Assembly: GCF_963678165.1 (NCBI RefSeq)
Contig: NZ_OY782755.1
Coordinates: 2,728,001 to 2,792,000 of the forward strand
Direction: 5' to 3'
DNA: 64,000 nt
Origin: an uncultured Acetobacteroides sp.
GTDB taxonomy: Bacteria; Bacteroidota; Bacteroidia; Bacteroidales; ZOR0009
The notes under the pieces were generated by a model. The model ran no database searches. It had not been told where the DNA came from and saw only the letters and a list, made by a program, of their open reading frames with translations. The position numbers were made by a program, and so were the translations under genes. This document shows, one piece after another, positions 7,296 to 20,775 of the stretch (within the stretch, counting starts at the first letter, position 1; each line of letters opens with the position of its first letter).

Positions 7296-7369
7296 CGGGG
7301 TGTAGCTCAGTTGGTTAGAGTTCTCGTCTGGGGGGCGAGAGGTCGGACGTTCGAGTCGTCTCACCCCGA
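7296..7369 (+). tRNA. tRNA-Pro (anticodon GGG)
   Basis: A 74-base cloverleaf. The acceptor stem CGGGGTG pairs with CACCCCG, with discriminator A at 7369. The anticodon stem CTCGT/GCGAG encloses loop CTGGGGG, giving anticodon GGG (proline). The T arm GGACG-TTCGAGT-CGTCT is intact. CCA is not encoded. Its 3' part, from the anticodon loop onward, is duplicated at 20733-20775, showing that an element used this gene as integration site while keeping it functional. Confidence 0.95.
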
Positions 7370-7370
7370 C
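7328..7370 (+). repeat. Left attachment site (attL) of the element
   Basis: A 43-base sequence from the anticodon loop to the 3' end of tRNA-Pro, identical to 20733-20775. Weaker similarity continues about 14 bases further (CTGAAAGTCAG here, CTGAAAATCAG on the right), as expected for a recombined att core and its arms. Confidence 0.92.
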
Positions 7371-7382
7371 CGCTGAAAGTCA

Positions 7383-7420
7383 GCCACTTACATTAAATAA
7401 TGTAAGTGGCTTTTCTTTTT
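7383..7420 (+). terminator. Rho-independent terminator after tRNA-Pro, inside the element
   Basis: GCCACTTACATTA at 7383-7395 pairs perfectly with TAATGTAAGTGGC at 7398-7410, followed by TTTTCTTTTT. It is element DNA, so the element restores termination to the tRNA gene whose own terminator was moved to 20805. Confidence 0.9.
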
Positions 7421-7510
7421 ACAATTAAACTTCTATTAAACTTCACCCCATACTTAGGAGTAGTAAAATGCGCTTAAACGTCCATTCAAACTAAAAATAT
7501 AACGAACGTA

Positions 7511-7852
7511 CTACTGTCTCCTCTCCTCTTTCAAACGAGCATTTTCCTCTAATAGTTCTATTATACGGTTCCCCTTATCGTTGCATTCGCGATATAGCGC
7601 AGCAAGTTCTTTTATATTGTCAGGGACCTGATCTAGGCTGCTTTGACTGCCCAGTAACATTTCACCCTTACCTGTGATTAGCCAATAAAGGTTTAAATCC
7701 GAATAACACGAGATTATAATCTCACATTTATCAGAACCTACATTCTCCCCTTTATCTAAAAATCCATTTGAAAGTCCGGTTTCTTTGTAAAATTTATACT
7801 TTGAAACACCTTTATTTTCAAGATATTCCAACACTCTTTGTATTGCGCCCAT
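7511..7852 (-). CDS. CI-like phage repressor (HTH)
   Basis: A 113-residue protein resembling small phage repressors of Bacteroidota: an N-terminal helix-turn-helix (IQRVLEYLENKGVSKYKFYKETGLSNGFLDKG, given here as residues 4-34) followed by the typical YWLITGKGEML segment near residue 55, and a charged C-terminal helix. There is no peptidase domain. It is divergent from three rightward genes, with a perfect 24-bp palindrome in the 139-bp intergenic region, so it most likely maintains the integrated state and represses the early genes. The inducing signal is unknown. Confidence 0.8.
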   Translation of the reverse strand: MGAIQRVLEYLENKGVSKYKFYKETGLSNGFLDKGENVGSDKCEIIISCYSDLNLYWLITGKGEMLLGSQSSLDQVPDNIKELAALYRECNDKGNRIIELLEENARLKEERRQ

Positions 7853-7887
7853 AAAACAATAGAAAATATTCTCATTTAAACTTGCAC

Positions 7888-7911
7888 AATAATAGATTAT
7901 ATTCTATTATT
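7888..7911. promoter_or_regulatory. Palindromic operator in the divergent repressor region
   Basis: AATAATAGA at 7888-7896 and TCTATTATT at 7903-7911 are perfect inverted repeats with a 6-base spacer; flanking TGCA on both sides extends the symmetry imperfectly. It lies 36 bases upstream of the repressor start and 81 bases before the first rightward gene. It is a probable binding site for the repressor dimer. Confidence 0.65.
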
Positions 7912-7991
7912 GCATAATCAAACGGTGCATTTTAAACGTAGTTGTTTGATAGAGTTTATTAACCCAATTGTAAATCTACAAAATTAATTCA

Positions 7992-8189
7992 ATGGCTAAG
8001 CAACCTAGAGAACTCCAAAAACTCAAAGAGAAGGTGTTTGGAGACTTTGTCACTACCAAGGCAAAAGAGAAAAAGGAATCAATCGGAGGAGATCCAACTA
8101 AAAAGGCAATTGCAATAGCACTTGCTAAGGATTTAGGATTAGAGGATTACTCCGGCCTTTACCGATTGATTTATAAACTAGATTTCTAA
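7992..8189 (+). CDS. Small basic protein, first early gene of the element
   Basis: A 65-residue protein rich in lysine, especially in its first 40 residues, with a C-terminal LGLEDYSGLYRLIYKL segment. No family recognised. Its position opposite the repressor across the operator suggests an early gene under repressor control, possibly an antirepressor, Cro-like or replication/excision factor, but nothing in the sequence proves this. Confidence 0.6.
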   Translation: MAKQPRELQKLKEKVFGDFVTTKAKEKKESIGGDPTKKAIAIALAKDLGLEDYSGLYRLIYKLDF

Positions 8190-8207
8190 CGCTTAATTGT
8201 CATTGTC

Positions 8208-8630
8208 ATGAAGAAAACTAACCAGAACACCCCAAATCAGAGCCTTTTCTTCTCATGCTTTAAAGGAATTAACAGCATGAATAACGCCAAATCAAACACC
8301 AACTATTCGTTGCATAAGTTGACCAGTATTATTGACGTTAATATTGGCGGGTCATACCTCTTCATCCTGCAGGGTGAAAATATTAGCCAGTGCCATTTCT
8401 ATGTTAAGGTGTACAACAGAGAAATCCTTGGTTTTGCAGTAAAGATGATAGAGTCAAACGACGCCTCTATTGAGAATTTTTGGAGGAAATCATTTAATGG
8501 AATTATATGCAAAGGGTTGGCAAACTCACCATCTGTGTCCCTTCAATATGATAAAATTATTGAGGTTTATTCCCTTTCTGAAAACCAGTCGACATCAGTA
8601 ACAACTCCAAAGACATACACCCATGCCTAG
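8208..8630 (+). CDS. Hypothetical element protein
   Basis: A 140-residue protein without a recognised domain, starting 18 bases after the preceding gene. It may instead start at the internal Met near residue 24 (MNNAKSN). The middle (about residues 40-85) has alternating hydrophobic beta-like stretches. It overlaps the next gene by 8 bases, so the three rightward genes form one operon. Confidence 0.6.
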   Translation: MKKTNQNTPNQSLFFSCFKGINSMNNAKSNTNYSLHKLTSIIDVNIGGSYLFILQGENISQCHFYVKVYNREILGFAVKMIESNDASIENFWRKSFNGIICKGLANSPSVSLQYDKIIEVYSLSENQSTSVTTPKTYTHA

Positions 8631-8952
8631 CTCCGTAACATCAACAGTGAAGACACAACAGCCGCTTACTATTCCAGGCGCAAACGAAGCCACCAACATT
8701 GCTTTACTATCGGCTTTAGAATCGTTTAATGAAAACCTTTTGGATTTAGCGCACAGCCGTATGCTCATAAAGTTGCTGTCTTCCCATGTAAAGGTTACGC
8801 TAAATGACCATAACCTAACCGAGAAAGACAAGGAATTAGCGCTTGTAAATGCCAACGACTACATATCTAACCTTGTTGACTTCCTTAATGAAATACAAGC
8901 CCTTTGCAGTATGCAAAATTTCAGCACTGGAAATGATCGTGAAGCATGCTAG
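8623..8952 (+). CDS. Hypothetical element protein, largely helical
   Basis: A 109-residue protein starting inside the end of the previous gene. After a Ser/Thr-rich first 20 residues it is predicted from its pattern to be mostly helical. No family recognised. A hairpin terminator follows its stop, closing the early operon. Confidence 0.6.
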   Translation: MPSSVTSTVKTQQPLTIPGANEATNIALLSALESFNENLLDLAHSRMLIKLLSSHVKVTLNDHNLTEKDKELALVNANDYISNLVDFLNEIQALCSMQNFSTGNDREAC

Positions 8953-8967
8953 TGGTAGTCAATTAAA

Positions 8968-9002
8968 AAGGGTGCCGGTATAAACGACACCCTTGCTTTT
9001 TC
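8968..9002 (+). terminator. Terminator of the early operon
   Basis: AAGGGTG at 8968-8974 pairs with CACCCTT at 8988-8994, followed by GCTTTTTC. It lies 16 bases after the stop at 8952 and between convergent genes. Confidence 0.8.
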
Positions 9003-9046
9003 TCTCACTTCCTTCAAATTGCCATACCAGAAACAAATTAGTTTTT

Positions 9047-9604
9047 TCAGAAATTGGTTGAATACGTAGTAGAGTTAATTATAACATTCCCCTCCACAAT
9101 CTCAGAATAATGCCTTCTCGGTTCAAAAAGATAGTTATATCGCTCAAAAACCAGAATAGGAATTTCTTTGTATCCTAGCCTTTTAGCAAGTCTAACTCTA
9201 TGTGTACCGTCTATTAGTCTTTTTGAGGTGCTTATTACACGGTTAGTAAATGCGTCGATTAAATGGAATTCTACAAAGATTGGAGGGATAATTTTTTCTC
9301 CTTTAGAAACGAAGTCTATTAGATTAAACATAATTTTTGAATCTTCATAAGCGCATGGATGAAAAATCGGCCCCTCCCATGCTCGATCTTTATCCTTATC
9401 GTCTTCTAAACTAAACGTTTTTTGGAATAGTCCTAAAACAAGGGACGTACTAGGGCTATTCCAATTTCTCAAGGCGTCAAACTTCATATTTTGGATATTA
9501 GTATCCCATTCAATAATTATTTTGCCACTTTCTATTTTGTCGGTATAATCCTGAATTAACTTAAATATTTCAAAGTTTCTAACAAGTCCTTCTGCTTCAA
9601 TCAT
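9047..9604 (-). CDS. ParB-like N-terminal domain protein
   Basis: A 185-residue protein whose second half carries the pattern of ParB/Srx-type domains: LIDGTHRVRLAKRLG at about residues 135-149 followed by KEIPILVFE. The N-terminal 90 residues are not recognised. ParB-like proteins of mobile elements may bind or modify DNA or hydrolyse nucleotides. It is the last gene in the leftward series of the element, which makes an accessory or cargo role as likely as one in packaging or DNA metabolism. Confidence 0.6.
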   Translation of the reverse strand: MIEAEGLVRNFEIFKLIQDYTDKIESGKIIIEWDTNIQNMKFDALRNWNSPSTSLVLGLFQKTFSLEDDKDKDRAWEGPIFHPCAYEDSKIMFNLIDFVSKGEKIIPPIFVEFHLIDAFTNRVISTSKRLIDGTHRVRLAKRLGYKEIPILVFERYNYLFEPRRHYSEIVEGNVIINSTTYSTNF

Positions 9605-9652
9605 TGTGAAAAAATTAATTTGTTTTTGAGTTATAAATTGACCTTATAGAAT

Positions 9653-10123
9653 TTAACGTATGGTAATCCCATACTTCCTGGCAACAGCAGTTAGATCTAC
9701 CTTTAAATCAACAAAGGCTACCTCTGCTTGGCTGGTTATGACGTTGTAGCCCTTGCTTTCAACCTTAGATGCATAATCCTTACCTGCCACGCCCACTAAC
9801 CTCAATCCCTTCCGGGAGCGCCTAGTAAAAAGGCTTCGAAGAATCGACATATTCGCCAACGGCTCTAAGTTATACTTAACGACCTTTTCGTTATGTAAGA
9901 TGTAGTAGCCAATTGAAGAGCGCAAATTAGCAGTTTGATCCTGGTAGTTTCCTTTAGGGAAAACCGACTTATTGACGTGAAGGTTCGTCTTCGCATTTTT
10001 CACAAACTCTTCTCCAACATAGGCCATTACCTCTATTGCTTCAGCAATAAACTGCTTTTTGTGGTTCTCAAACGCTTCAGATATTTGGGCCAACGATCCG
10101 TTTCTATTTTTAAGTTTCAACAT
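9653..10123 (-). CDS. HK97 gp10-like phage head-tail joining protein
   Basis: A 156-residue protein resembling HK97 gp10-type tail completion/neck proteins: an N-terminal helix with FVKNAKTNL (about residues 54-62), a loop LRSSIGYYI, and the late YASKVESKGYNVIT segment (about 119-132) that is characteristic of the family. It lies directly downstream of the tape measure gene, whereas in most phages it precedes the major tail protein. Its neighbours in a normal head-tail module are absent. Confidence 0.65.
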   Translation of the reverse strand: MLKLKNRNGSLAQISEAFENHKKQFIAEAIEVMAYVGEEFVKNAKTNLHVNKSVFPKGNYQDQTANLRSSIGYYILHNEKVVKYNLEPLANMSILRSLFTRRSRKGLRLVGVAGKDYASKVESKGYNVITSQAEVAFVDLKVDLTAVARKYGITIR

Positions 10124-10173
10124 GTGTCTATTGATTTGGGAGGGAGCCTTTATGCCCCCTCTTTGGATTTCTA

Positions 10174-13100
10174 TTACCTTCCTATTGCACGCCTTTCTCC
10201 CAAATTACTTCCACTTCCAATGGCGCCTCTAATTGCAGAAATGTCAGCACCTATCATTGATAGGTTTCTAACCGTTGCCGCCGTATTGGCCTCAATCGCT
10301 CTTTGTATGCTTACCGACTCGTTCATTACGGATAGCTGCTCGCGGATGGTCATGTGCTGCTCGCGGATGTCGTAGCGCATCCCCGTTAGGTTTCCGACAA
10401 TATCGGTTCCTGTTTGCTCGGATAGGTTCTTTACGATGCCAACTGCAGAATTCTCCTTTGATGATGATGATGTTCCAAAAAGGTCTATCCCGGCTCCATT
10501 CATTACAGAATTCATATCATCAAATTTAACCTTGGCATCTGCCGCAATCTTCTCATACATGGCCCGTAGCTGGACCACCTCGTCTGCGGTTAGCTTACCA
10601 TCGCTTTCGCTGGCCAAGGCAAACTGATTATAGAAATCCCGGAGCGGCTTCTCCAACATTTGCATCTTAAGGCTATTCAACACCTGCTTCTTCATTAAAT
10701 CCCCGAACGTATTAGCAAACTCCTCGGCGCTAACAACTCCATCATCAAACGCAGATGCAAGGCTATCAACTACACTATCGTAGGTACTACCAGTAAGGGC
10801 AGTCCTTTGCTTATCCATTAGACTATTTATCTCTTCAGCATACTTCTCATAATCGCTTATAAGATTGTCTAGGACTTCCTTGTTGGTGACATTGATGCCT
10901 TTAGCAAGCATGTCGTCCACCATTTTGTAGATGTTTTTTATTCGATCTCGATTCGCATCGAGCTGCGACTGTACATCACCTAACGACTTAGTGTAATCGA
11001 TTGACTGCAAAGACCAATCTGCCGCTTTCTTCTTGGCATTCCACGTAGCCTCATCGTCAAGTTTGCTCATAGCAATGCCTGCATCAGTCATTAACTTGAT
11101 ATAGCTTTGATAGGTAGAAAAAATATGTGTTTTATTGTTTTCAGACGATTCAAACAGCTTCATAGTATCACCATTCCACTCTCCTCCGTCATTTGTCATC
11201 CCCTTTTTAGTGGTAAGCGCAAATGTTTTGTACTTACCAATAACTCCATCAAGCGAAGTCTTTGCAGACTCAATAGCCTTTGTGTATGCCTCTATCTTAT
11301 CAGTACCATACGCACTATCAATAAGATCTTTCTGCATATCATATAGCTTATTGATAATATCAAGCTGCTTGGCCATGCGGTCGTTGGCCAACTCTTGCTC
11401 CTTTCTTCTCTCGGCTTCTTCTCTTGCTGATTTTTGCGTTATTGAGGTAATTATTGAAGCTGCACCTGAAATAATTGCTCCTGTATAGTTCTGTTGAGCT
11501 AACTGACTAAACGCTCCAGCCAATCCGCTTGCAAGTTGTATTGACTCTCCTAGTCCTTCATTAAATTGTCCTACAATCTGAGCAATGTTCGATAGATGAC
11601 CCGAAACGTTGCTGAAGGTATTGCTAAGAATCTCGCTTTTCTTGGACGTACTCTCATCAATATCCCTTTGAGCCTCTTTTATTTTATTGGCATCACCATT
11701 TGCGGAAGCTATTTTTTTCTTAGCGGCTACAATCCGTTTATCCAACTCTCGCATTGCGGCAAGCGGAGCCTTTTCGGATAGTGCTTGAGTAGTTTCTGAA
11801 AGAGCCTTCTCTAACGCCAACTTCTCATTATCCGTCAGCTTCGTATTCTTTAAATCCTCATTTAGCCTATCTATCCTTGCCTGTAATGCAGCCTTGCCCC
11901 ACTTTTCAATGCTGTCGTATAGGTATGCGAAGTTCTTTAGCTTCTCGCGATTGGATGCCTCAAGTTCATTTACATCGTCATTCATTTGCTTGCGACGAAC
12001 TGCAGCCTGATCTTTTAGGCCTTTGTTTTCAAGAGTGGCTATGTCGAGCATCCCCTGTCCGACAATATCAAGTCGCTTTTGCTCGAATGTTTTGGACGAC
12101 TCCAACAGCGAATCCATTGAGGTATCTATGACTAGCTCGTTGCTGTCGCCCATCATCAACTTTAGCTCCTTTGAATCCCTTACGGTTGCCGCCAGCTGCT
12201 TGAGTCTTTCTATAGCGTCTTGAGCATCCCCGGGAAGCTGCGATAGGTAGCCCTTGTCGCCCTTCTTAAGCCCCTTGCTTTTGTTGTAGGCTTCAAGAAG
12301 AGACTTTTCTTGCTTCTCTATCTCGTTGAGTTTATCGGCATACTCGTTCTTGATGGCCTGCATTTCCTTATCTGTGCCATCCTGCATAAGGGAAAGCTTA
12401 TCCTTGTTGATATCGCTGTAGATCTTATGCAGCTGCTCCTGGTAGGCCTTATCATCCTTTACAGATGCCTTAGGCGTTTTTATCTTTTCGCCTGTAAGCG
12501 TTGCATAGGTCGCCTTCAGCTTGGAGAGGTTATCTTCTTCCTTCTTGATTTCATCTGCCGTAGCCTTTGAATTAGCAGCACGAAGAGACCTGAGGCTGGC
12601 TTCCGACTTCTTTATGTCCTCCAAGGTCTGTTTAGCCTGTGCCGAAACGGTAGGACTTGCAACTTTAGCCTTGGGTAACATATCGGTAGGATCACCAAAA
12701 AGTAGCGCATTTTGCTTCAGTTCAGACTTTAGTATGCTACGAGCCTCACGGATATCCTTTACAATGTCGGCAACTCCATTGGTATATGTAGTTGTAACCA
12801 TGCCTGTCGTTCCGCTCTGGTAGGTGTGCTCCTTTGCAAATGAGTTTATGGCATCTCCCAATTCCTTATTAAATCCTCTCCCCTCCTGTAGGGCTAACCG
12901 CATTTTTGTAAGTAGCTCTGTACCTTTCTTTACACCAAACTTATCGTTTAGATTCTCCTGTAGCGATTCAATTAGAGGCTTAACCGTCTCCTCAAATGCA
13001 GATTGAGCACCAGCAGCACCCTCTGATTGAGCCTTGGCCATAGATGCCTTAATTACCGCCGACGTGATAGTTTCATAAGCCTTTGCCACATTGTTAAGCG

Positions 13101-14844
13101 ACTTGGTTTCTACATCTAAGTTTTCAAGATAGTTCCCGTACTTTGATATGATAGCCTGCTTGGCATCATCGTATGCCTTAGTTCCCTTGGTAAGCCCTTG
13201 CAGCGTTCCAAAAAGCGTATCAACAGCCACCGTCTCAGACATTACAGCAGATTGGTAGTTAGCGGAACTTGTGGCCAGCCTTTTTTGGCTCTCTTCGAGC
13301 AGGCTGGTTTGTGAAGCCAATTTGTAGATGATGTAGGCAAACGCAGCAACAGCGGCAGCAGCAACAGCATAAGGGTTGGCCAGAACAAAACCATGAACCT
13401 TACTCATCACTCCAAGGAGTTTTGTCTTTGCAAGAGTGAGAACACTTGTGGACTCAGCATTTGCCGCCTGAGCAGCAGTATTAACGGCCGTGGTTGCGGT
13501 GTTGGCTTCTTTTGCGGCTGTTTCGACGGCTATTTTTTTTGCGCTAAAATCCTGGGTAGCATTCTTAAATTCTAAGGCTGCGGCTTCTCTGGTCGACGCG
13601 GCAGCAGCAAGCCTGCTCTCTGCTAGTGCAAGCTGCTTTTCTGTTCCTGTTGCCCCTATTGCCATTGCCTCAGCAAGTCTCGCGGCCTCCAACTCCTTAG
13701 TGGCTATATATTCTGCACGTTTAGCCTCTACCGTTTGAGCAGCGGCAGATACTTCAATTCGAGCCTTATCAAGCGTTGATTTAGCAGCAAGCACGTTCGT
13801 TTCTACCTCAGCCTTTACAATATTGGCATACTCAACGGATGTCTTGGCAAGCCCTAGCTTCGATATTTCAGCCTGTTTTTCAGCGCTAACAAGGTTTAGC
13901 AGCGCAGCGGCCTCGTTGGTGCGGTTCATTGTCGCTTTGGTATTCTCCATTGCGGCAACCAGCATAAGGGCTGCTTTATATCCACCGTAAGCAGCGGCTA
14001 CGCCCTTAAGGGTAGTAATGAATACCTCGTAGTTTTCAACTGCGAAGCTGACACCTCCAATAACTCCCTCGATTAGCCCGGCATTGGCCGTACCTATTTT
14101 ATTTAAGGTTTGATCTATAGTATCGCCAAGGTTTGATATCTGCCCGGGAATGGTTTTAGATTGTTCTTGCATGAGGTTGTAGAACTGCCCCCCCGCATTG
14201 GTCATTTTGTTTATAACCTTCTCTACATCCTTAAAGCCAACCTGTCCGCTCTCCACCATCTTATCAATGGCACTATCGGCTACTCCGAACTGCATTGCCA
14301 GCTCGTGAACTAACGGTAACCCCATTTCCATGAATTGGCGCATGTCGTCACCCTGCAGCTTGCCTTTTGCCTTTACCTGTCCGTAGGCTAGAATAACGCG
14401 ATCGAGAGGAACAGAGGCTCCTGATGCTACGTTTCCAAGCCTTACCAGTGTATCATTAACCGTGTCTGCACTCTGTCCATAGGCTAGCAGCCTTTTAGCA
14501 CCATCGGCAACCTGAGTTAATGAGAAAGGCGTACTGGCAGCGGTATTAACCATCTGCTGCATTAGCTGGTTTGCCCGTTCCTTGCTTCCGAGCATGGTGG
14601 TAAAGGCTACCGATAGCTGCTGAAATTCCCCAGTAACCTCTATAATCTGCTCGCCTATGCTTTTAGCGAAATCAAAGGTGAAGTAACCGGCTATTGCGGT
14701 TCCGGCATTCTTGTATAGAGAGTCTATTTTTGATGCTGCAGCCTCATTGGTACGCACGAAATCCTGTACGCTCATTGCTCCGCGTTTCAAATCACGCTCA
14801 AGTTGCTCAAAGTCGAGTGCTGCGTCAAATTGTAACGATGCCAT
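10174..14844 (-). CDS. Phage tail tape measure protein
   Basis: A 1556-residue protein. The N-terminal 280 residues are a typical tape measure domain: FQQLSVAFTTMLGS near residue 93, then PFSLTQVADGAKRLLAYG, DDMRQFMEMGLP and the SGQVGFKDVEKVI segments. A long Ala/Glu-rich coiled-coil region follows (about 300-480), then a hydrophobic stretch near 490-512 and further coiled coil to the end. Tape measures set the length of long non-contractile or contractile tails. No tube, chaperone, distal-tail or baseplate gene accompanies it here, which is very unusual for a complete prophage. Confidence 0.9.
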   Translation of the reverse strand: MASLQFDAALDFEQLERDLKRGAMSVQDFVRTNEAAASKIDSLYKNAGTAIAGYFTFDFAKSIGEQIIEVTGEFQQLSVAFTTMLGSKERANQLMQQMVNTAASTPFSLTQVADGAKRLLAYGQSADTVNDTLVRLGNVASGASVPLDRVILAYGQVKAKGKLQGDDMRQFMEMGLPLVHELAMQFGVADSAIDKMVESGQVGFKDVEKVINKMTNAGGQFYNLMQEQSKTIPGQISNLGDTIDQTLNKIGTANAGLIEGVIGGVSFAVENYEVFITTLKGVAAAYGGYKAALMLVAAMENTKATMNRTNEAAALLNLVSAEKQAEISKLGLAKTSVEYANIVKAEVETNVLAAKSTLDKARIEVSAAAQTVEAKRAEYIATKELEAARLAEAMAIGATGTEKQLALAESRLAAAASTREAAALEFKNATQDFSAKKIAVETAAKEANTATTAVNTAAQAANAESTSVLTLAKTKLLGVMSKVHGFVLANPYAVAAAAVAAFAYIIYKLASQTSLLEESQKRLATSSANYQSAVMSETVAVDTLFGTLQGLTKGTKAYDDAKQAIISKYGNYLENLDVETKSLNNVAKAYETITSAVIKASMAKAQSEGAAGAQSAFEETVKPLIESLQENLNDKFGVKKGTELLTKMRLALQEGRGFNKELGDAINSFAKEHTYQSGTTGMVTTTYTNGVADIVKDIREARSILKSELKQNALLFGDPTDMLPKAKVASPTVSAQAKQTLEDIKKSEASLRSLRAANSKATADEIKKEEDNLSKLKATYATLTGEKIKTPKASVKDDKAYQEQLHKIYSDINKDKLSLMQDGTDKEMQAIKNEYADKLNEIEKQEKSLLEAYNKSKGLKKGDKGYLSQLPGDAQDAIERLKQLAATVRDSKELKLMMGDSNELVIDTSMDSLLESSKTFEQKRLDIVGQGMLDIATLENKGLKDQAAVRRKQMNDDVNELEASNREKLKNFAYLYDSIEKWGKAALQARIDRLNEDLKNTKLTDNEKLALEKALSETTQALSEKAPLAAMRELDKRIVAAKKKIASANGDANKIKEAQRDIDESTSKKSEILSNTFSNVSGHLSNIAQIVGQFNEGLGESIQLASGLAGAFSQLAQQNYTGAIISGAASIITSITQKSAREEAERRKEQELANDRMAKQLDIINKLYDMQKDLIDSAYGTDKIEAYTKAIESAKTSLDGVIGKYKTFALTTKKGMTNDGGEWNGDTMKLFESSENNKTHIFSTYQSYIKLMTDAGIAMSKLDDEATWNAKKKAADWSLQSIDYTKSLGDVQSQLDANRDRIKNIYKMVDDMLAKGINVTNKEVLDNLISDYEKYAEEINSLMDKQRTALTGSTYDSVVDSLASAFDDGVVSAEEFANTFGDLMKKQVLNSLKMQMLEKPLRDFYNQFALASESDGKLTADEVVQLRAMYEKIAADAKVKFDDMNSVMNGAGIDLFGTSSSSKENSAVGIVKNLSEQTGTDIVGNLTGMRYDIREQHMTIREQLSVMNESVSIQRAIEANTAATVRNLSMIGADISAIRGAIGSGSNLGERRAIGR

Positions 14845-15046
14845 ATTCTGTTTTTCTTTAAATTAATCATAATGCACTATAAAACTGCATTTTAACTATT
14901 ACGTTTCCTCACCATACAGTTAATCGTGATTAGTTAGTTTTTTTGAACATCCTTCAATTCATCATTAACCAATTAGTTTTCAACAAATAACATAAACATC
15001 ACAACCTAACAACTGGACTAATACGCCTGATTCTAGATCAGGTATA

Positions 15047-15451
15047 CTAGTTTTTCTCTGTTTGGAATGAATCAAGAGGTGTTACTTTGAATATACTCTC
15101 GGGCATCGACGACATACTTTCGAGCGCATTGATAGTGTAACTCTTTTCGTAGCTAAGTACTTCCTTCGTTATCGGGTGCACCTCAAGGTAAAGGCCGCTA
15201 CCTATGCTTTCGAAGGTACGGTCATTAAGTTCTGGACCTAGTTTGACTACATATTTCACGCGCTTTGGAGAAAGTTCGATATATTGCATCAACACATTAA
15301 GGTCGTGCTCAGAAAGCACTTCAGCATCATGGCACATCACCGCTAATGCAGCAACATTGGCGCGTGCTTGATCCGATGGTACTCCTGAAGAAGCCCGGAG
15401 AGTATCTATGGTCATGCTCAATTGCTGGGCGAGAGTTTTTTTTATTGACAT
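15047..15451 (-). CDS. Hypothetical element protein
   Basis: A 134-residue protein from the ATG at 15451; the frame can be extended to a TTG at 15475 inside a hairpin. No family recognised. The first half is helical; the second half has LYLEVHPITKEVLSYEKSY with a beta-rich look. It lies between the terminase-associated genes and the tape measure gene, where a phage would have head and tail structural genes, so a tail or tail-chaperone-like role is possible but unsupported. Confidence 0.55.
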   Translation of the reverse strand: MSIKKTLAQQLSMTIDTLRASSGVPSDQARANVAALAVMCHDAEVLSEHDLNVLMQYIELSPKRVKYVVKLGPELNDRTFESIGSGLYLEVHPITKEVLSYEKSYTINALESMSSMPESIFKVTPLDSFQTEKN

Positions 15452-15467
15452 TTTTCGGTTGGTTTTT

Positions 15468-15498
15468 ATGACCAACAGCTTAGAATGCTGTTGGTCAT
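15468..15498 (-). promoter_or_regulatory. 12-bp perfect hairpin ahead of the 134-residue gene
   Basis: ATGACCAACAGC at 15468-15479 pairs perfectly with GCTGTTGGTCAT at 15487-15498 across a 7-base loop. It sits 16 bases upstream of the ATG at 15451 and has no T-run after it on the minus strand, so it looks more like a processing or translational control hairpin than a terminator. Confidence 0.6.
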
Positions 15499-15564
15499 TG
15501 AAGGTTATAGTTCGATTTTTCTAAATATTTAGTCGAAAACTCTGTATTTGTGAATTTTCAACTT

Positions 15565-15741
15565 CTAAATATTGAGTTTGGCCACCCCGACAGCATCAGG
15601 TCCCGTGCGCTCTTCTTCATTGAAGAGATTTACCAACGCTTGATGATCGAGTTCGCCTTCTAGGCTCGAGACGTAATCTTGGTTATTGAGATCTGCGATC
15701 AAATTCTTCAGATCATCTTTAGTTTTGACTGTAAATTGCAT
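15565..15741 (-). CDS. Small acidic element protein (58 residues)
   Basis: An ATG at 15741 preceded by AAAAGG opens a 58-codon frame beginning MQFTVKTKDDLKNLI and ending with VGVAKLNI before TAG. It is acidic, probably mostly helical, and fills the gap between the 236- and 134-residue genes on the same strand. No family recognised. The frame, spacing and ribosome-binding site make it a credible gene. Confidence 0.6.
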   Translation of the reverse strand: MQFTVKTKDDLKNLIADLNNQDYVSSLEGELDHQALVNLFNEEERTGPDAVGVAKLNI

Positions 15742-15769
15742 TGTCTTAACCTTTTGGATTATTACTCGT

Positions 15770-16480
15770 TTAACGGCTTCTTGGTTTTACTCCAACATCC
15801 CCAAATGATGAGTAATCAACATAATAATAATTAGAATCATAGTTGTAGGGGATGAGAGGAATGTTGTGGACAGTCTCCAGCGATACAGCGTTATAGGAAA
15901 ACGCCCCTTCGTCGGATAATTTCTTCAGATACGCTTGTAGCTCATTTAAGGCTTTACAAGCCTTCTCGGATAGGTCGAGCACCTTTGTTTTTTCTGGGGT
16001 ATCAGCGTAAATACTTAGTTCAGCTCGTTGTTCTTCAAGAAAAGATTCTGCTAGCACCACTTTCCCATCGTTGGCTATTTCGTAGTTTGAAATGGAAAAT
16101 AGTGGGACAAGGTATTCTGCCTGCCATTTGAGGTGAACTCGGGGGATATTTCGAAGAGTGGCAACAATTTTACCAAGTTTCGAGTCAAGGCTGCTGACGT
16201 ATTGATCCTGCTGAAACTTCAAAAAAGAATCCTTGGGCTCGGGTTGCGATGCTCTCCACTCTTGAACCAGTTCTTGACTTCCTCCTCCGAGCAACTTCAG
16301 CAACTTTTCAATTGATGGCTCTATCCCTAGGCTTCGAAGTTCTCGAAGGGATGCTTCAACCCCGGGTATAAGTTTTTCGTGGAGGGAAATCCTTTTTTTG
16401 TACTCTCCCTCATCGAAGTAAATCACTTTTGTTTCGTTCTTCATTTTAATAAGTATTTGGTTGTTAGTTGTTACGTTCAT
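15770..16480 (-). CDS. Hypothetical protein downstream of small terminase
   Basis: A 236-residue protein, or 224 if it starts at the internal Met at 16444; the longer form overlaps terS by 17 bases. No family recognised. The N-terminal two-thirds are helical and charged; the last 25 residues are rich in Tyr and Asn. In phages the large terminase normally follows the small one; this protein has no Walker A motif or nuclease residues and is far too short to be TerL. Confidence 0.6.
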   Translation of the reverse strand: MNVTTNNQILIKMKNETKVIYFDEGEYKKRISLHEKLIPGVEASLRELRSLGIEPSIEKLLKLLGGGSQELVQEWRASQPEPKDSFLKFQQDQYVSSLDSKLGKIVATLRNIPRVHLKWQAEYLVPLFSISNYEIANDGKVVLAESFLEEQRAELSIYADTPEKTKVLDLSEKACKALNELQAYLKKLSDEGAFSYNAVSLETVHNIPLIPYNYDSNYYYVDYSSFGDVGVKPRSR

Positions 16481-17000
16481 TATATGGCAACACCACGACG
16501 GTCCCGATTTCTGGTTTCCTTTGCTCGTTGTCCTTTTCGTAGCCTCCTAGATGCTTCATAAGTTTTTCGATAGCCTCCAGCTTCGACGTTAACTTGATTG
16601 TTTTCATCATCCCGATAGGGCCATCGACACTCGAAATCTCCATCAGTTTCAATTCGGTGATACACTTGCGAGCAGCCTCTGGCATGTCGCTAAGGTTCTT
16701 TATCGTGCCGTTATCGTTAAATAGATCGACTGGGTCGAGACGCACTATAGCGGCAAGCGTCTGAATGAGTTCGTCGAGTTTAATACGATTCCGTTCTCGC
16801 ACCTCTTCTCTCAGGTTCTTAATGAATGTTTTAATCTCAGGTTTTTTCAGGTTTTCTTGTCCGATTGAACCAGCCGTTCTTTCGCTATAACCCGCCCTTA
16901 TAGCCGCCTGAGTTGCGTTTAGGTCGATAAGATATTCCTCACAGAAGCGACGCTGTTTTGGACTTAACGCTGTCTTCTTCATTTCTTTTTTTGTGTCCAT
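16464..17000 (-). CDS. terS: Phage terminase small subunit
   Basis: A 178-residue protein with the hallmark N-terminal DNA-binding helix-turn-helix of Terminase_2-type small subunits: LSPKQRRFCEEYLIDLNATQ (residues 12-31), AAIRAGYSERTAGSIG and NLKKPEIKTFI. The remainder is an oligomerisation/coiled region. TerS recognises the packaging site and hands DNA to the TerL motor. No terL is present in the element. In phage-inducible chromosomal islands a satellite TerS redirects the helper phage motor to satellite DNA, and that is the inferred role here. Confidence 0.85.
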   Translation of the reverse strand: MDTKKEMKKTALSPKQRRFCEEYLIDLNATQAAIRAGYSERTAGSIGQENLKKPEIKTFIKNLREEVRERNRIKLDELIQTLAAIVRLDPVDLFNDNGTIKNLSDMPEAARKCITELKLMEISSVDGPIGMMKTIKLTSKLEAIEKLMKHLGGYEKDNEQRKPEIGTVVVLPYNERNN

Positions 17001-17010
17001 ATCTTTTTAT

Positions 17011-17937
17011 TTAAAGTGGTTTGCTGTAGTCTTTACCTCCTTGACCAACGCGCTCGCTAGAGTTTCGAGTTTGGACTTGGGCTGCTAAGAATTTTCTGTC
17101 GCATTCCTGAGCTCTCTGCATTATGTGCTTTTGGGTTTCAGATAGTTGTTTTTCATTTGTTGCTCTCTTGGCTTTGGCCTGCATTAGTAAGGTTTCTCGC
17201 TTCTCCCTAAGTTTTGCTGTACTCCGAATATTAAGTTTCCAGAACTCATCGATCTCTAGAAACTCAAAAATGGTTCTCAAATCGTCTTTAGTACATTCTT
17301 CTCTCTGAAGCATTAAGCGAATAGGGGTTATTACTGTCTCGTACTTCGCTTTTTCGAGTGAGGTTGGCTGGATTCCGCTGGAAAGCATATTTTTATAGAA
17401 AAGATCATAGAAGCCTTTCGCTATGTTGTAACTCTCAACATCAGACTCTTCTATGTCTTCGATTTTCACCTCCTTAAACAATATTTTTTTATAATCCTTT
17501 GATGCGAGCGGCTGAAAGCCCTTTTCTATGTTTAAAGGTTTTATGTTTTCAGTTTCTAAGTTTATTGAATGTGGGATGTGCTCTGTTACTTGCGGTGGAT
17601 TTGCGTTGGCAACTGCTTTGGTAAGTGCATTGGTATGTGCTTTGGTAGAATTTACCAGAGCAATTATGTTTGCTTGGTGCTGATTGAATGATTTTTTGAC
17701 GATGGCAATAAATTCATATTCAACCAGTAGATCAAAATTCTTTTTATATGTCTTGTAGGACGATACACCTATTGCTTCACAGCATTCTTTTGGCGTAATA
17801 GAAAACCTCTCTTTCCATCCTAGTCTGTTGGCTACTTCGATAATATAGAAGTATAGCGCAACCAGCGTAGGGTTGTTTTTATCTGGGTTTTCAAAAGCCC
17901 AATCCCAGTACCTCCGACTTAACTCGTATCCGTTCAT
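17011..17937 (-). CDS. Replication initiator / DnaD-like primosomal protein
   Basis: A 308-residue protein beginning MNGYELSRRYWDWAFENPDK, a form common in Bacteroidota phage replication proteins with an N-terminal winged helix: ITPKECCEAIGVSSYKTYKK near residues 47-66 would be the recognition helix region. The middle is poorly conserved and the C-terminal third is basic and helical. It probably brings host helicase to an element origin. It follows the small HTH gene by 18 bases and precedes terS by 10 bases. Confidence 0.65.
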   Translation of the reverse strand: MNGYELSRRYWDWAFENPDKNNPTLVALYFYIIEVANRLGWKERFSITPKECCEAIGVSSYKTYKKNFDLLVEYEFIAIVKKSFNQHQANIIALVNSTKAHTNALTKAVANANPPQVTEHIPHSINLETENIKPLNIEKGFQPLASKDYKKILFKEVKIEDIEESDVESYNIAKGFYDLFYKNMLSSGIQPTSLEKAKYETVITPIRLMLQREECTKDDLRTIFEFLEIDEFWKLNIRSTAKLREKRETLLMQAKAKRATNEKQLSETQKHIMQRAQECDRKFLAAQVQTRNSSERVGQGGKDYSKPL

Positions 17938-17955
17938 CCTTTTTACTTCTTATTC

Positions 17956-18171
17956 TTAGAATCGCCCTCTTTCTATCAGTTCATCAAGTTCTCTTTGCTT
18001 GAAGTACAAGAACTTCCCGAATTTGTAGCCTCCCAAAACACCATTGCATTTTTGATTGTAGAGTGTTTTGACCGCTACATTTAAATAGTTAGCGGCTTCT
18101 TTGGAGGTGAGATATCCCTCCTGCGAATTCGATTCATCGACCTTCAACAAAGATTGATTTCCATGTTTCAT
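17956..18171 (-). CDS. Excisionase-like HTH protein
   Basis: A 71-residue MerR/helix_turn_helix_17-type protein: LTSKEAANYLNVAVKTLYNQ near residues 21-40 is the helix-turn-helix, followed by a wing with KFGKFLYFKQRELDELI. Such proteins serve as recombination directionality factors or AlpA-like activators. It is the first gene of the leftward replication-packaging series and lies downstream of the 290-base palindrome-containing gap. Confidence 0.8.
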   Translation of the reverse strand: MKHGNQSLLKVDESNSQEGYLTSKEAANYLNVAVKTLYNQKCNGVLGGYKFGKFLYFKQRELDELIERGRF

Positions 18172-18352
18172 GTTGACTTTCAGTTTTTTGTTAGTTCGAA
18201 TTTAGTTGTTGCAACTCGATATATCATTTTATTTCCTGTTGATTCCCTCACCGTCCATCGGATGGTGAGCTGATGGCAGATCTTTACCCTTTCCTTTTAG
18301 AGCAACCCACCATACAACTCTATATACCAACATATTTACCACTCACAACAAT

Positions 18353-18399
18353 CCTTAATTAAGGCCAAAAGCATTGCTATACGCCTAATTAATAGGCGT
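18353..18399. promoter_or_regulatory. Two palindromes in a non-coding gap of the element
   Basis: The gap 18172-18462 contains a perfect 12-bp palindrome CCTTAATTAAGG (18353-18364) and the inverted repeat ACGCCTA-ATTAA-TAGGCGT (18381-18399), in a rather AT-rich setting. With HTH genes on both sides and a replication initiator downstream, this is a candidate operator or replication origin. A GGGGGATAG/CTATCCCCC hairpin (about 18448-18472) overlaps the stop of the upstream gene. Confidence 0.5.
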
Positions 18400-18462
18400 T
18401 CACATATTTGCATGAAATTTCAGATTGTCGAGCGGAGATGTTTCCGTGGGGGGATAGGCTTT

Positions 18463-18780
18463 CTATCCCCCGAATTGTGACTTCGTTTTTTTCTTCTTTG
18501 CGGCCCAATCGAGCAGTTCAGGCTCTGAGAACACAACTTTCCTTCCAAACTTGGAGTGAGGAATTTGACGCTTCGATGTCATGTAGTAAAGTGTAGATTT
18601 GGTTAGCTTATAACCATTGTTGTTAAGCATCTCTGCTGCCTCGGCTACAGACATATTTTCTCTCAGTTCCCTTGGTTTTTGAGGCTCTTCCCTCCTGGCT
18701 AGTTCTTTCCGGATGACATCCCTCAATTGCCCTACCGTAAGGAATGCCAACGGAGTATTATCATTTATTTCCATTTCCAT
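18463..18780 (-). CDS. Small HTH DNA-binding protein (second of pair)
   Basis: A 105-residue protein with an N-terminal leader NTPLAFLTVGQ (about residues 8-18) and a C-terminal helix-turn-helix, MSVAEAAEMLNNNGYKLTKS, followed by KRQIPHSKFGRKVVFSEPEL, the wing typical of excisionase-family proteins. It overlaps the upstream paralogue by 20 bases and shares the leader and architecture with it. It is likely a DNA-binding factor for excision or early transcription. Confidence 0.75.
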   Translation of the reverse strand: MEMEINDNTPLAFLTVGQLRDVIRKELARREEPQKPRELRENMSVAEAAEMLNNNGYKLTKSTLYYMTSKRQIPHSKFGRKVVFSEPELLDWAAKKKKTKSQFGG

Positions 18781-19126
18781 GACTTTTTAGATCAAAGTTG
18801 TTCTTGAACTCTTCAATGGTTTCATGCCGATTTGCTAACAACCAACCCTCAATCTCATTTCTTCTGAATAATACCTTTCTACCTCCATGTGCAGGTTTGA
18901 AATAAGGTATTTTGTTCTCACAGACATATCGAGATATCGTCCACACTGAATATCCAGTAAGTTCTGCACACTGTTTTTTGCTAAGAATGTCCGGAAATAC
19001 TCTTTTTACTGCTACATCTTCACTGGCAACAGCACCTCCTTTTGGGGACGCGTTCTCTAATACTTCTAAGAATTGCCCAACTGTCAATGCTGCAAGAGGT
19101 GTGTTTGTTGTTACTTCGGTATACAT
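18761..19126 (-). CDS. Small HTH DNA-binding protein (first of pair)
   Basis: A 121-residue protein with leader NTPLAALTVGQ (about residues 8-18) and a C-terminal helix-turn-helix at about residues 50-69 (LSKKQCAELTGYSVWTISRY), then KIPYFKPAHGGRKVLFRRNEI. It is paralogous to the overlapping downstream gene. It lies about 200 bases downstream of the integrase; the intervening region has the integrase terminator. A role as recombination directionality factor or transcription regulator is inferred from family and position. Confidence 0.75.
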   Translation of the reverse strand: MYTEVTTNTPLAALTVGQFLEVLENASPKGGAVASEDVAVKRVFPDILSKKQCAELTGYSVWTISRYVCENKIPYFKPAHGGRKVLFRRNEIEGWLLANRHETIEEFKNNFDLKSHGNGNK

Positions 19127-19271
19127 ATTCTAACATTTTGTTTACCCAAATTTCGTAACTATTTGCAAGAATATGCTTTTTTTAATCCCCCAGTTATCAA
19201 CAAATCAGCATCGGGAATTAACATGTTTAATTATCAATTACTTAGACACTAATCGAACGATTCATAAAATA

Positions 19272-19307
19272 AGAAGCGCTGGTAAATTTGATTCTGCCAG
19301 CGCTTCT
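19272..19307 (-). terminator. Integrase terminator
   Basis: AGAAGCGCTGG at 19272-19282 pairs with CCAGCGCTTCT at 19297-19307. On the minus strand the stem is followed by TATTTTAT, and it lies 23 bases after the integrase stop. Confidence 0.75.
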
Positions 19308-19329
19308 CCAGTTTTCACAATATTTTAAT

Positions 19330-20583
19330 CTACAACAACTTCCCAGCTTCGTCTATAACATCTGTCGTGAAAGAATCTAAATATATATTGGTTGTTTCCA
19401 TATCGTTATGGCCTAAAGTTTGGCTTATCACCTCTCTTGGTACATTATTGGCTTGCAGCACCATTGCCATAGAGTGCCTGGCAACGTATGAAGTCAACCT
19501 CATATCATTAATATTTAAATCATTAGCAATGGTTCTTAATTTATTTTTATTTACTGTAAATCGATGACGAATATGTTTATACAAGGATTCTCCGCTCAAC
19601 TTTTGCTGGTTAACGATAGGAAGTAAGTAATTATCAATCAATTTAGTATTTATTCGAAACCATTCCATTAACGCATCGATCTCTGAGGTTATCTTAATCT
19701 TTATCTCTCGAACCGCTTTTTGATTTTTGATTTTTTCTCGCTTATACACCAAGTAACGACCTCCATTAAGTTGAACAATATTTGTAGTATTCAACCTAGC
19801 CGCATCCACCCAGCTAATACCGTAACAATAGTATAAGAAAAGAAATAGTTTACGCGCTTCCTCCAATGAAGGGTCGTCGAAAGATGTCTGCTTTATTTGC
19901 TCGAGCCTATCAATCGTTAGATATCGCTTCTTGGTCTCTTCTCCGAGTTTCGACACTTCAAATTTATTCGCCCCGAAAGGATAATCATTAGTAGTAGCAA
20001 TACCGTCCTTTATAGCCCGATTCCATATCGCCCGTAATGTTTTAATGTAATATCTTCTGGTATTACCGGCACAGCCTCTTTTCTCTAGAAATAGATCGAA
20101 ATCTTTCAGGTATCTCACATCTATTTCACCAAACAACCGTTTTTCAACCCTAGAATCGAATATCTCTAATATTTTACGGGTATTTTCATAGCAATTCGCA
20201 TTGCCATAATGCTCGGTATCTCTAAAATCACACACCAACTTATCGATATATTTCAACACGTTCCCTTGAGCACCTTTATTGCTAAATAACTCATCAAATT
20301 GGCTTAGAGTCCAATTTTTACCAATTCGTTCAAAAGACAGAATTATGTCATTTGCTCTGTTCTCGATCTCGTTCAAAAGAATATTATACTTTTCATTGTC
20401 AGGACAAAGACGCTTATCCTTCTTATAGCGCCCGATCTCTTCATTCCATTGCTTTTCAGTAGCTCGAAGATTGCCAATTGTAATGTACTTCAGTTTGCTT
20501 TGCTTAGTAACACGGAGCATTACAGGGAAGGTTCCATTTTTAGCTTGATTGCTTTTGTATAGGAGAATTTTGATTCGTGCCAT
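19330..20583 (-). CDS. int: Tyrosine recombinase / integrase of the element
   Basis: A 417-residue integrase from the ATG at 20583 (MARIKILLYKSNQAKNG); the frame extends 7 codons further. It has the Bacteroidota arrangement: N-terminal Arm/MAP-type domain, a SAM-like core-binding domain (about 100-200), and a C-terminal catalytic domain with ARHS, LGHNDMETTNIYLD containing the nucleophile Tyr. At the first catalytic-Arg region the sequence is YCYGISWVDAARL, where many relatives have Arg before the Gly. Located 150 bases from the right att repeat, it should catalyse insertion into and excision from tRNA-Pro. Confidence 0.93.
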   Translation of the reverse strand: MARIKILLYKSNQAKNGTFPVMLRVTKQSKLKYITIGNLRATEKQWNEEIGRYKKDKRLCPDNEKYNILLNEIENRANDIILSFERIGKNWTLSQFDELFSNKGAQGNVLKYIDKLVCDFRDTEHYGNANCYENTRKILEIFDSRVEKRLFGEIDVRYLKDFDLFLEKRGCAGNTRRYYIKTLRAIWNRAIKDGIATTNDYPFGANKFEVSKLGEETKKRYLTIDRLEQIKQTSFDDPSLEEARKLFLFLYYCYGISWVDAARLNTTNIVQLNGGRYLVYKREKIKNQKAVREIKIKITSEIDALMEWFRINTKLIDNYLLPIVNQQKLSGESLYKHIRHRFTVNKNKLRTIANDLNINDMRLTSYVARHSMAMVLQANNVPREVISQTLGHNDMETTNIYLDSFTTDVIDEAGKLL

Positions 20584-20732
20584 GCCAGAGTAATAATTAA
20601 ACATCTATTAAACTTTACATGCAATTTCATGCAAATTCCGTTGACGGTCATTTTACATATACCATTGAATTTCAATTAAATTTACAAATAAAATCTCTAT
20701 TTTGCAAGTCGTTGCTATACCTATATTCTCAC

Positions 20733-20775
20733 CTGGGGGGCGAGAGGTCGGACGTTCGAGTCGTCTCACCCCGAC
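20733..20775 (+). repeat. Right attachment site (attR) of the element
   Basis: A 43-base copy of the 3' part of tRNA-Pro, identical to 7328-7370 and not preceded by the 5' half of a tRNA. It marks the right end of the element. Confidence 0.92.

Follow-up and report, generated by a model that had tools for sequence, protein, structure and literature searches.

We examined a 64,000-nucleotide stretch of DNA from an uncultured Acetobacteroides sp. (contig NZ_OY782755.1, positions 2,728,001 to 2,792,000; hereafter the window), in which an island is integrated at a tRNA-Pro gene (7328-20775). This island is probably a phage satellite that would use a helper phage for packaging and would build a chimeric tail with a tape measure protein (TMP) of its own. 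As read from sequence, the case for it is made by an integration unit, the gene content, an empty site, a family of related elements, and mosaic TMPs in those relatives.

The island is bounded by exact 43-bp direct repeats whose spacing gives a size of 13,405 bp. A preliminary description of this DNA had derived these att repeats from tRNA-Pro, and both copies proved exact: attL (7328-7370) lies within the 3' half of a tRNA-Pro(ggg) gene that is intact at the integrated left end (7296-7371, plus strand; called by ARAGORN and by Rfam at 1.8e-10), and attR is the second copy (20733-20775). Two 24-nt repeats just inside the left and right ends (7423-7446 and 20595-20618, 92% identical) are possible integrase arm sites. 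All 16 open reading frames (ORFs) between the att repeats are open, as had been described, including those of the small terminase and the TMP, in which a frameshift had been named as evidence against a satellite; the coding fraction is 0.89. The GC content is 0.41 for the element and 0.50 for the remainder of the window. In a genome of the same genus (G002), trxB, tRNA-Pro and pstS are consecutive, with ~0.4 kb separating the tRNA and pstS matches and the element absent. G002 is one of two further genomes from this genus; in the second, G001, the tRNA and the flank to its left matched, and pstS was not found within the 5 kb taken.

The 16 encoded proteins were scanned against Pfam and PHROGs, and the core of the proposed gene set held up. 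On the minus strand, the element encodes a tyrosine integrase (19330-20604; PF13102, 1.5e-19; PF00589, 3.7e-11; PF17293, 8.2e-10), a DnaD-like replication protein that corresponds to the proposed replication initiator (17011-17937; phrog_2514, 5.2e-11), a terminase small subunit (TerS, 16464-17000; PF03592, 2.8e-39; phrog_51, 9.4e-43), a TMP of 1556 amino acids (aa) (10174-14844; phrog_9959, 3.6e-230; PF20155, 4.4e-32) and, downstream of the TMP, an HK97-gp10-like neck/tail-completion protein (9653-10123; phrog_5377, 8.5e-28). Both TMP family matches are strong, and a tail-ruler role is predicted. The gp10-like protein is 48% identical to the copy in a prophage (L074); with the Pfam family HK97-gp10_like it reached 0.079 only, under the cut-off of that family. 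The reported lack of large terminase (TerL), portal, capsid, tail tube and lysis genes was likewise borne out, since none of these families was found in the 16 proteins, apart from weak matches of a holin model (7.6e-4) and the TerS model phrog_57 (0.031) to stretches of the TMP and of a helix-turn-helix (HTH) protein. A further minus-strand gene, ORF 15770 (15770-16480, 236 aa), is common to the satellite family and was aligned by hhalign to eight relatives.

The host genome is a single 4.30-Mb contig with one TMP match and one TerS match; no second copy of either was found in it. A search of the same genome with phrog_2 (TerL) gave only a weak match in an ordinary chromosomal neighbourhood and none that was convincing, and therefore no resident helper is evident.

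A family of elements with ORF 15770

Of 393 genomes in the order, 40 had a TMP match (host counted), and most of the 18 stretches taken around the best matches resembled prophages, with head and tail genes in series. The gp10-like gene lay upstream of the TMP gene in all eight prophage loci in which both were mapped, vs downstream in the window. Genome G025 holds a second island (L078, identical in location to L111), which ends at tRNA-Leu. It encodes an integrase, a TMP, an ORF 15770 homologue and, where TerS would be expected, a phrog_15125 protein, along with proteins resembling DnaD and DnaC and an HTH protein.

Further TMP loci were collected by scanning genome contigs (best 80 of 89 relatives) and viral contigs (best 80 of 341) with a TMP profile. 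They were typed by eight head and tail profiles, all grown from one prophage (L074/L075), and by an ORF 15770 profile grown from the typed loci themselves. Among 163 loci (window counted, duplicates unmerged), 20 were ORF 15770-positive without any of the eight markers, several of them being one place taken twice. A marker other than the tail tip was present in 114 loci, none of which had ORF 15770 (0/114), while 29 had neither ORF 15770 nor such a marker, seven of these with the tail-tip marker alone. Of the 175 loci (window excluded) obtained after merging and later additions, 15 were ORF 15770-positive and marker-free, 134 had a marker (tail tip alone in 7) and 26 had neither. The TerL and portal profiles matched just 6 and 33 of the 134 marker loci and say little, because those genes lie far from the TMP gene; the absence of TerL and portal from the relatives rests on PHROG scans of selected larger unassigned ORFs. 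One of the 134, L288, combines ORF 15770, an integrase, and TerS-like and DnaD-like proteins with a portal (phrog_64, 6.7e-59) and a protein resembling a tail tip. The genes of the latter two adjoin its TMP gene (L288:3226-9961), so that this satellite covers a larger part of the connector-tail axis. Genome G217 (L315) has an integrase, ORF 15770, TerS (phrog_51, 3.4e-24), a gp10-like protein and a TMP. This makes at least 17 elements with both TMP and ORF 15770 besides the window (the 15, L288 and G217), or 18 with it; L141, with two ORF 15770 matches near 1e-5, is a probable 19th. L096 (Chryseobacterium) has an integrase and a TMP, and matched neither ORF 15770 nor any of the markers.

Among the named hosts are Marinilabilia salmonicolor, Prolixibacter denitrificans, Kaistella, Epilithonimonas tenax and Chryseobacterium carnipullorum; L148 lies on a contig from a metagenome-assembled genome labelled Lachnospiraceae (JAGALE010000270.1) that bears a Bacteroidota-type satellite and is perhaps misbinned. 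An att-like repeat of 48 bp at tRNA-Lys was found in L134 (copies 14,265 bp apart). The repeats of L092 (tRNA-Arg, 15,825 bp apart) and L098 (tRNA-Glu, 16,608 bp apart) are short, at 15 bp, and rest on the tRNA position; a repeat search gave no clear att repeat at several other relatives' elements.

Virion genes vary among these elements. A gp10-like gene occurs in the window, L092, L148, L141 and L315. L092 encodes a protein whose family member in prophage L074 is encoded between the genes for scaffold and capsid (hhalign 100%, 2.1e-39), and one L092 protein has a weak major-head PHROG match (9e-4); the capsid profile had no match in 16 merged ORF 15770 loci. L134 encodes a head-morphogenesis-like protein (phrog_7625, 6.3e-46), and a phrog_10156 protein was detected by scan in L109 and L098, with blast clustering adding L107, L148, L220 and L245. 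Satellites thus select individual virion genes, of which TMP is the commonest in our set, partly since most elements were found via TMP. In L134 (Prolixibacter denitrificans), we also noted that two copies of ORF 15770 flank the head-morphogenesis-like protein of 387 aa (13269-16215).

The ORF 15770 relatives are 13-21% identical to the window copy. In hhalign comparisons, the window protein matched the eight relatives at 98.6% (E = 1.2e-15), and two copies from Flavobacteriales hosts matched the same eight at 94.3% (E = 1e-7); the weakest copy is that of Kaistella (1.1e-5). An independent viral scan with six copies returned five loci, two of them new (L254 and L255), each with an integrase and a TMP and with no head or tail marker. 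Searching the 393 genomes of the order with the ORF 15770 profile gave nine matches at E ≤ 0.001, of which G025, the window, G282 and G217 scored 1.5e-8 or better; the other five (6e-5 to 7.2e-4) were not counted. Across 395 genomes of the phylum there were two matches, the window and G675 (2.5e-6). The islands of G282 and G675 (L314 and L316) are at tRNA-Gln and tRNA-Met, and two large proteins of unknown nature, 569 and 670 aa long, are encoded in L314. The L109 copy, the only one queried, had no match at E ≤ 0.01 in 50,697 phage records, and the window copy matched no PHROG family. Its AlphaFold model is mostly helical (predicted local distance difference test score 77) and gave no convincing structural match. 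The ratio of nonsynonymous to synonymous substitution rates (dN/dS) for ORF 15770 is 0.17-0.27.

Mosaic tape measures in the relatives

A tree built with FastTree from 135 N-terminal regions of TMPs, 111 of them different, requires 13 switches between satellite and phage, at least 10 of which are imposed by branches supported at 95%, a pattern that we read as TMP exchange with phages. With shuffled labels the mean was 19.8 changes, and none of 500 shuffles needed as few as 13; therefore, the label is also clustered on the tree.

In four satellite lineages, a stretch made up of the TMP gene and the gene after it matches a phage at both ends with 88-98% DNA identity, and the middle of the ruler differs. 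L109 matches the phage contig L249 at 96.6% identity over 9982-11754 and 12549-15559, its TMP gene lying at 9983-15037 and the next gene ending at 15554. Identities at the two ends were 89.6% and 98.1% for L220 and L236, 96.5% and 88.1% for L107 and L238, and 88.0% and 89.8% for L255 and L278. In all four pairs, the match begins at most 17 bp from the TMP start codon and stops at most 5 bp from the end of the next gene, and no DNA match was found in the TMP middle at E ≤ 1e-10. Outside these two genes, only L255 and L278 matched in the available DNA of the four pairs (454 bp at 68%), L236 and L249 being partial phage contigs. Two phages, L247 and L249 (95% DNA identity), align in one unbroken block across the TMP gene.

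At the protein level, an initial filter (65% over 400 aa) left 147 pairs. We then defined a strict set in which the first 550 and last 700 aa were both at least 91% identical and the length was at least 1400, a 91% cut that was picked after the pair list had been viewed. In this set, the middle was 42-55% identical in seven of seven satellite-phage pairs, vs 74-99% in the phage-phage pairs (17, nine of them non-identical; Fisher's test, 7/7 vs 0/9, p = 9e-5) and 99% in the single satellite-satellite pair. The seven pairs stem from four satellite lineages, and counting 4 against about 7 phage groups gives p = 0.003. Satellite L269 is intermediate (92/64/84 with L276). Among the phages, the TMP match of OQ791282.1 (Shigella phage Henu10) has a score equal to those of Riemerella phages, and its host label may be wrong.

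Compared with the phage that has the same TMP ends, the rulers of L109, L220, L255 and L107 are 115, 117, 102 and 10 aa shorter. At a tail length of 0.15 nm per TMP residue, 115 aa corresponds to about 17 nm of tail. When compared with the nearest complete phage TMP by score, in pairs many of which are just 30-60% identical, 13 of 17 satellite TMPs are shorter by 10-260 aa; the 260-aa case is L148, whose TMP ORF is without about 166 N-terminal residues of its relatives. Within a clade of 36 complete TMPs, a middle of 255-270 aa was found in 6 of the 9 satellites (a count in which L288 is a satellite) and one of 258-266 aa in 3 of the 26 phages; the middle of the remaining TMPs measures 354-385 aa, with one row unclassified (Fisher's test, p = 0.003; 5/8 vs 2/16 after collapsing by hand, p = 0.02). 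The phage loci L239, L243 and L246 have a TMP middle of the short type common among satellites.

For whole TMPs compared between satellites, dN/dS is 0.17-0.20, and for the ends shared with phages it is 0.09-0.16; the relatives' TMPs are therefore under purifying selection. L109 is nearest to L220 by ORF 15770 (synonymous divergence, dS, 0.10) and nearest to L245 by TMP (dS 0.085), hence the ruler is a module that passes from one satellite backbone to another.

A predicted satellite life cycle and its alternatives

In the satellite reading that we favour, the element sits at tRNA-Pro, the integrase and HTH proteins would control integration and excision, and the DnaD-like protein would start replication. 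TerS would steer the packaging motor of a helper phage onto satellite DNA. Since no capsid, portal, TerL or tail tube was detected in the element, a helper siphophage would have to supply them. The satellite would contribute the TMP and the gp10-like neck protein, giving a chimeric tail in which the tube and tip of the helper surround the satellite's ruler. In relatives, the ruler ends match a phage of the same habitat type or host group and may serve to fit that phage's tail parts, and the differing middle may set tail length or set the satellite's ruler apart from that of the helper. The preliminary description had also read the element as a satellite, and this fits the added evidence: ORF 15770, which is shared across elements, was seen in none of the 114 phage-type loci; elements with TMP and integrase, without capsid or tube, recur at other att sites and in other genera; the gp10 order differs from that of the prophage loci; the relatives' TMPs are under purifying selection; and the site is empty in G002.

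Several observations weigh against this reading. For the window itself, anatomy and an empty site can be read from the DNA, and a helper, induction, packaging and particles are predicted. The evidence for mosaic TMPs and for selection comes from the relatives, not from the window element, whose TMP has no close phage match: the best complete phage TMP is 32% identical (L187), and the highest identity to a phage, 59%, was confined to a portion of the first 330 aa. Phage-phage pairs of lower similarity also differ in mid-ruler (e.g. L106 and L209, 88/41/86). Four of the 17 satellite TMPs are 1-15 aa longer than the phage TMP (L103, L146, L096, and L255 against L246), and ruler shortening in satellites is a tendency, not a rule. 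The islands L314 and L316 have an integrase and ORF 15770 with no TMP detected, hence the family as a whole does not depend on a TMP; ORF 15770 is the mark of a wider group of satellites that often, though not always, have one. Lastly, G068, one of the five uncounted matches, has a broken ORF 15770-like piece with an internal stop, and the contig that holds it also bears a phage connector marker (L317, 1117-1371 and 10587-10925). The piece may be left over on a phage, or the phage may have taken up or kept such a gene, and the exclusivity of ORF 15770 to satellites may not be strict.

We also considered a more specific scheme, which we put forward as speculation and consider improbable: satellites would copy the TMP ends and the next tail gene of a helper by recombination, a private middle would tag satellite tails, and ORF 15770 would be a candidate anti-TMP factor or ruler-loading chaperone. 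A private middle would then work through a shorter ruler or through escape from the satellite's own anti-TMP factor.

The main alternative named earlier was a deletion derivative of a prophage, which lost head, tube and lysis genes and kept TMP and TerS as leftovers. The phage ancestry of TMP, gp10 and TerS agrees with it, as does the lack of a second TMP or TerS copy in the host genome. Nevertheless, we now regard it as very unlikely. A defective prophage is recognized by a phage-collinear gene order and decaying genes, whereas here the att repeats are intact, all ORFs are open, and gp10 is on the other side of TMP from its place in the prophage loci, an order that deletion alone cannot give; moreover, similar gene sets with a common non-phage protein recur in other genera and att sites, and selection preserves the relatives' TMPs. 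Another possibility is that the TMP serves DNA delivery, leaving the particle with the DNA and requiring an inner-membrane partner in the host, so that the satellite version suits the satellite's own hosts. A role of TMP in genome injection has reportedly been established in HK97, and L107 and L238 are nearly equal in length and different in the middle. However, the phage shares the ruler ends and not the middle, and three of the four close pairs differ in length by 102-117 aa, which makes this explanation improbable. We would give a similarly low weight to the TMP as a weapon that competes with the helper TMP for tube and tip proteins and spoils helper tails, with satellite DNA travelling in unmodified helper particles. 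Ends near-identical to those of the phage would make a good competitor, and tail assembly is known to be targeted by satellite-borne defences, namely by Tai in phage-inducible chromosomal islands (PICIs; PMC11364771) and by Rta in PLE11, one of the PICI-like elements (PLEs) of Vibrio cholerae (PMC12987554). By contrast, deletion of PLE tmp lowers satellite transfer (PMC12987554). Selection that keeps full-length rulers intact at both ends and middle also speaks against a weapon, and the gp10, portal, minor head and tail-tip genes of some relatives fit particle building.

Among known systems, PICIs and the Staphylococcus aureus pathogenicity islands (SaPIs) are 10-17 kb islands with att repeats, a tyrosine integrase, regulators, a replication gene and TerS. 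The element resembles them in all of these, with a DnaD-like protein as the replication gene, no capsid, portal, TerL or lysis gene detected, and a site that is empty in a relative. It differs in having a TMP and other virion parts and in its host phylum. No capsid-redirecting family turned up in the general Pfam and PHROG scans, in which Stl, AlpA, Ppi and Cpm were not individually searched. Capsid-forming PICIs (cf-PICIs) are defined by their own capsid genes, and none was detected in the window element; putative tmp genes occur in some of them and in PLE-like elements, according to the legend of Extended Data Fig. 10 in PMC12987554.

The precedent that the preliminary description lacked is that of the PLEs (PLE1, PLE4 and PLE11), for which the use of an own TMP has been shown (PMC12987554). 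In that study, PLE11 virions hold the TMP of the PLE and not that of ICP1, tails are about 10 nm shorter, deletion of tmp cuts transduction, and PLEs are called the first family known to build chimeric tails. The likeness lies in a satellite-encoded TMP and a partial tail kit, with the rest from a helper. PLEs belong to another phylum, whereas here a tyrosine integrase acts at a tRNA gene and the TMPs are of siphophage type (phrog_9959); TAC, BhuB and Rta were not identified here, PLEs having been compared by description and not by sequence. The TMPs of PLE11 and ICP1 differ by 95 aa in length and are 20% identical (PMC12987554), vs 88-98% DNA identity to phages at the TMP ends of our relatives. 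The family suggests that the chimeric-tail strategy also exists in Bacteroidota, in an apparently unrelated type of satellite. Consistent with the earlier remark that such gene sets are not well described in this phylum, we found no description of Bacteroidota satellites with their own TMP in the open-licence PMC literature. Mosaic TMPs would point to the phages that probably help uncultured satellites, and the benefit of an own ruler could be tested on rulers whose differences lie mainly in the middle. Bacteroides phage Versailles, like related Bacteroidota siphophages, represents the proposed helper type: its TMP is 55% identical to that of L109 and is followed by a 170-aa gene, as in L109, L107, L220 and L255, but it is a full phage with annotated portal, major head, tail and endolysin genes.

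Remaining genes and minor observations

From the right end, the minus-strand genes run in the order integrase, three HTH_17 proteins, DnaD-like protein, TerS and ORF 15770, and continue with two unknowns of 58 and 142 aa, the TMP, the gp10-like protein and a weakly ParB-like protein. The HTH_17 proteins resemble regulators or excisionases (18761-19126, PF12728 at 2.9e-7 and phrog_66 at 6.6e-9; 18463-18780, PF12728 at 7.2e-9; 17956-18171, PF12728 at 2.2e-10). The 58-aa protein (15565-15741) has a weak match to phrog_10910 (0.0096), and the 142-aa protein just upstream of the TMP (15047-15475) has no family above the cut-off. The ParB-like segment, in a protein of 185 aa (9047-9604), is weak as well (phrog_26377, 0.0022). 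At the left end are three small plus-strand genes, encoding proteins of 65 aa (7992-8189) and 140 aa (8208-8630) with no Pfam or PHROG family and one of 109 aa (8623-8952) with none above the cut-off, and a minus-strand gene for a possible repressor of 113 aa (7511-7852). The latter had been taken as part of a repressor switch; some repressor match was indeed obtained, although it is marginal (phrog_8, 0.0043). A tRNA-Ser call by ARAGORN at 15447-15530, without Rfam support, is probably spurious.

Two observations on relatives concern other genes. Five satellites encode a secreted-looking lipoprotein (299-334 aa) after the TMP region (for example, L109:15708-16655 and L107:17189-18088), which is possible cargo. 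In satellite L220, a gene at 1452-2840 matches an ADP-ribosylglycohydrolase-like family (phrog_6572, 1.8e-70).

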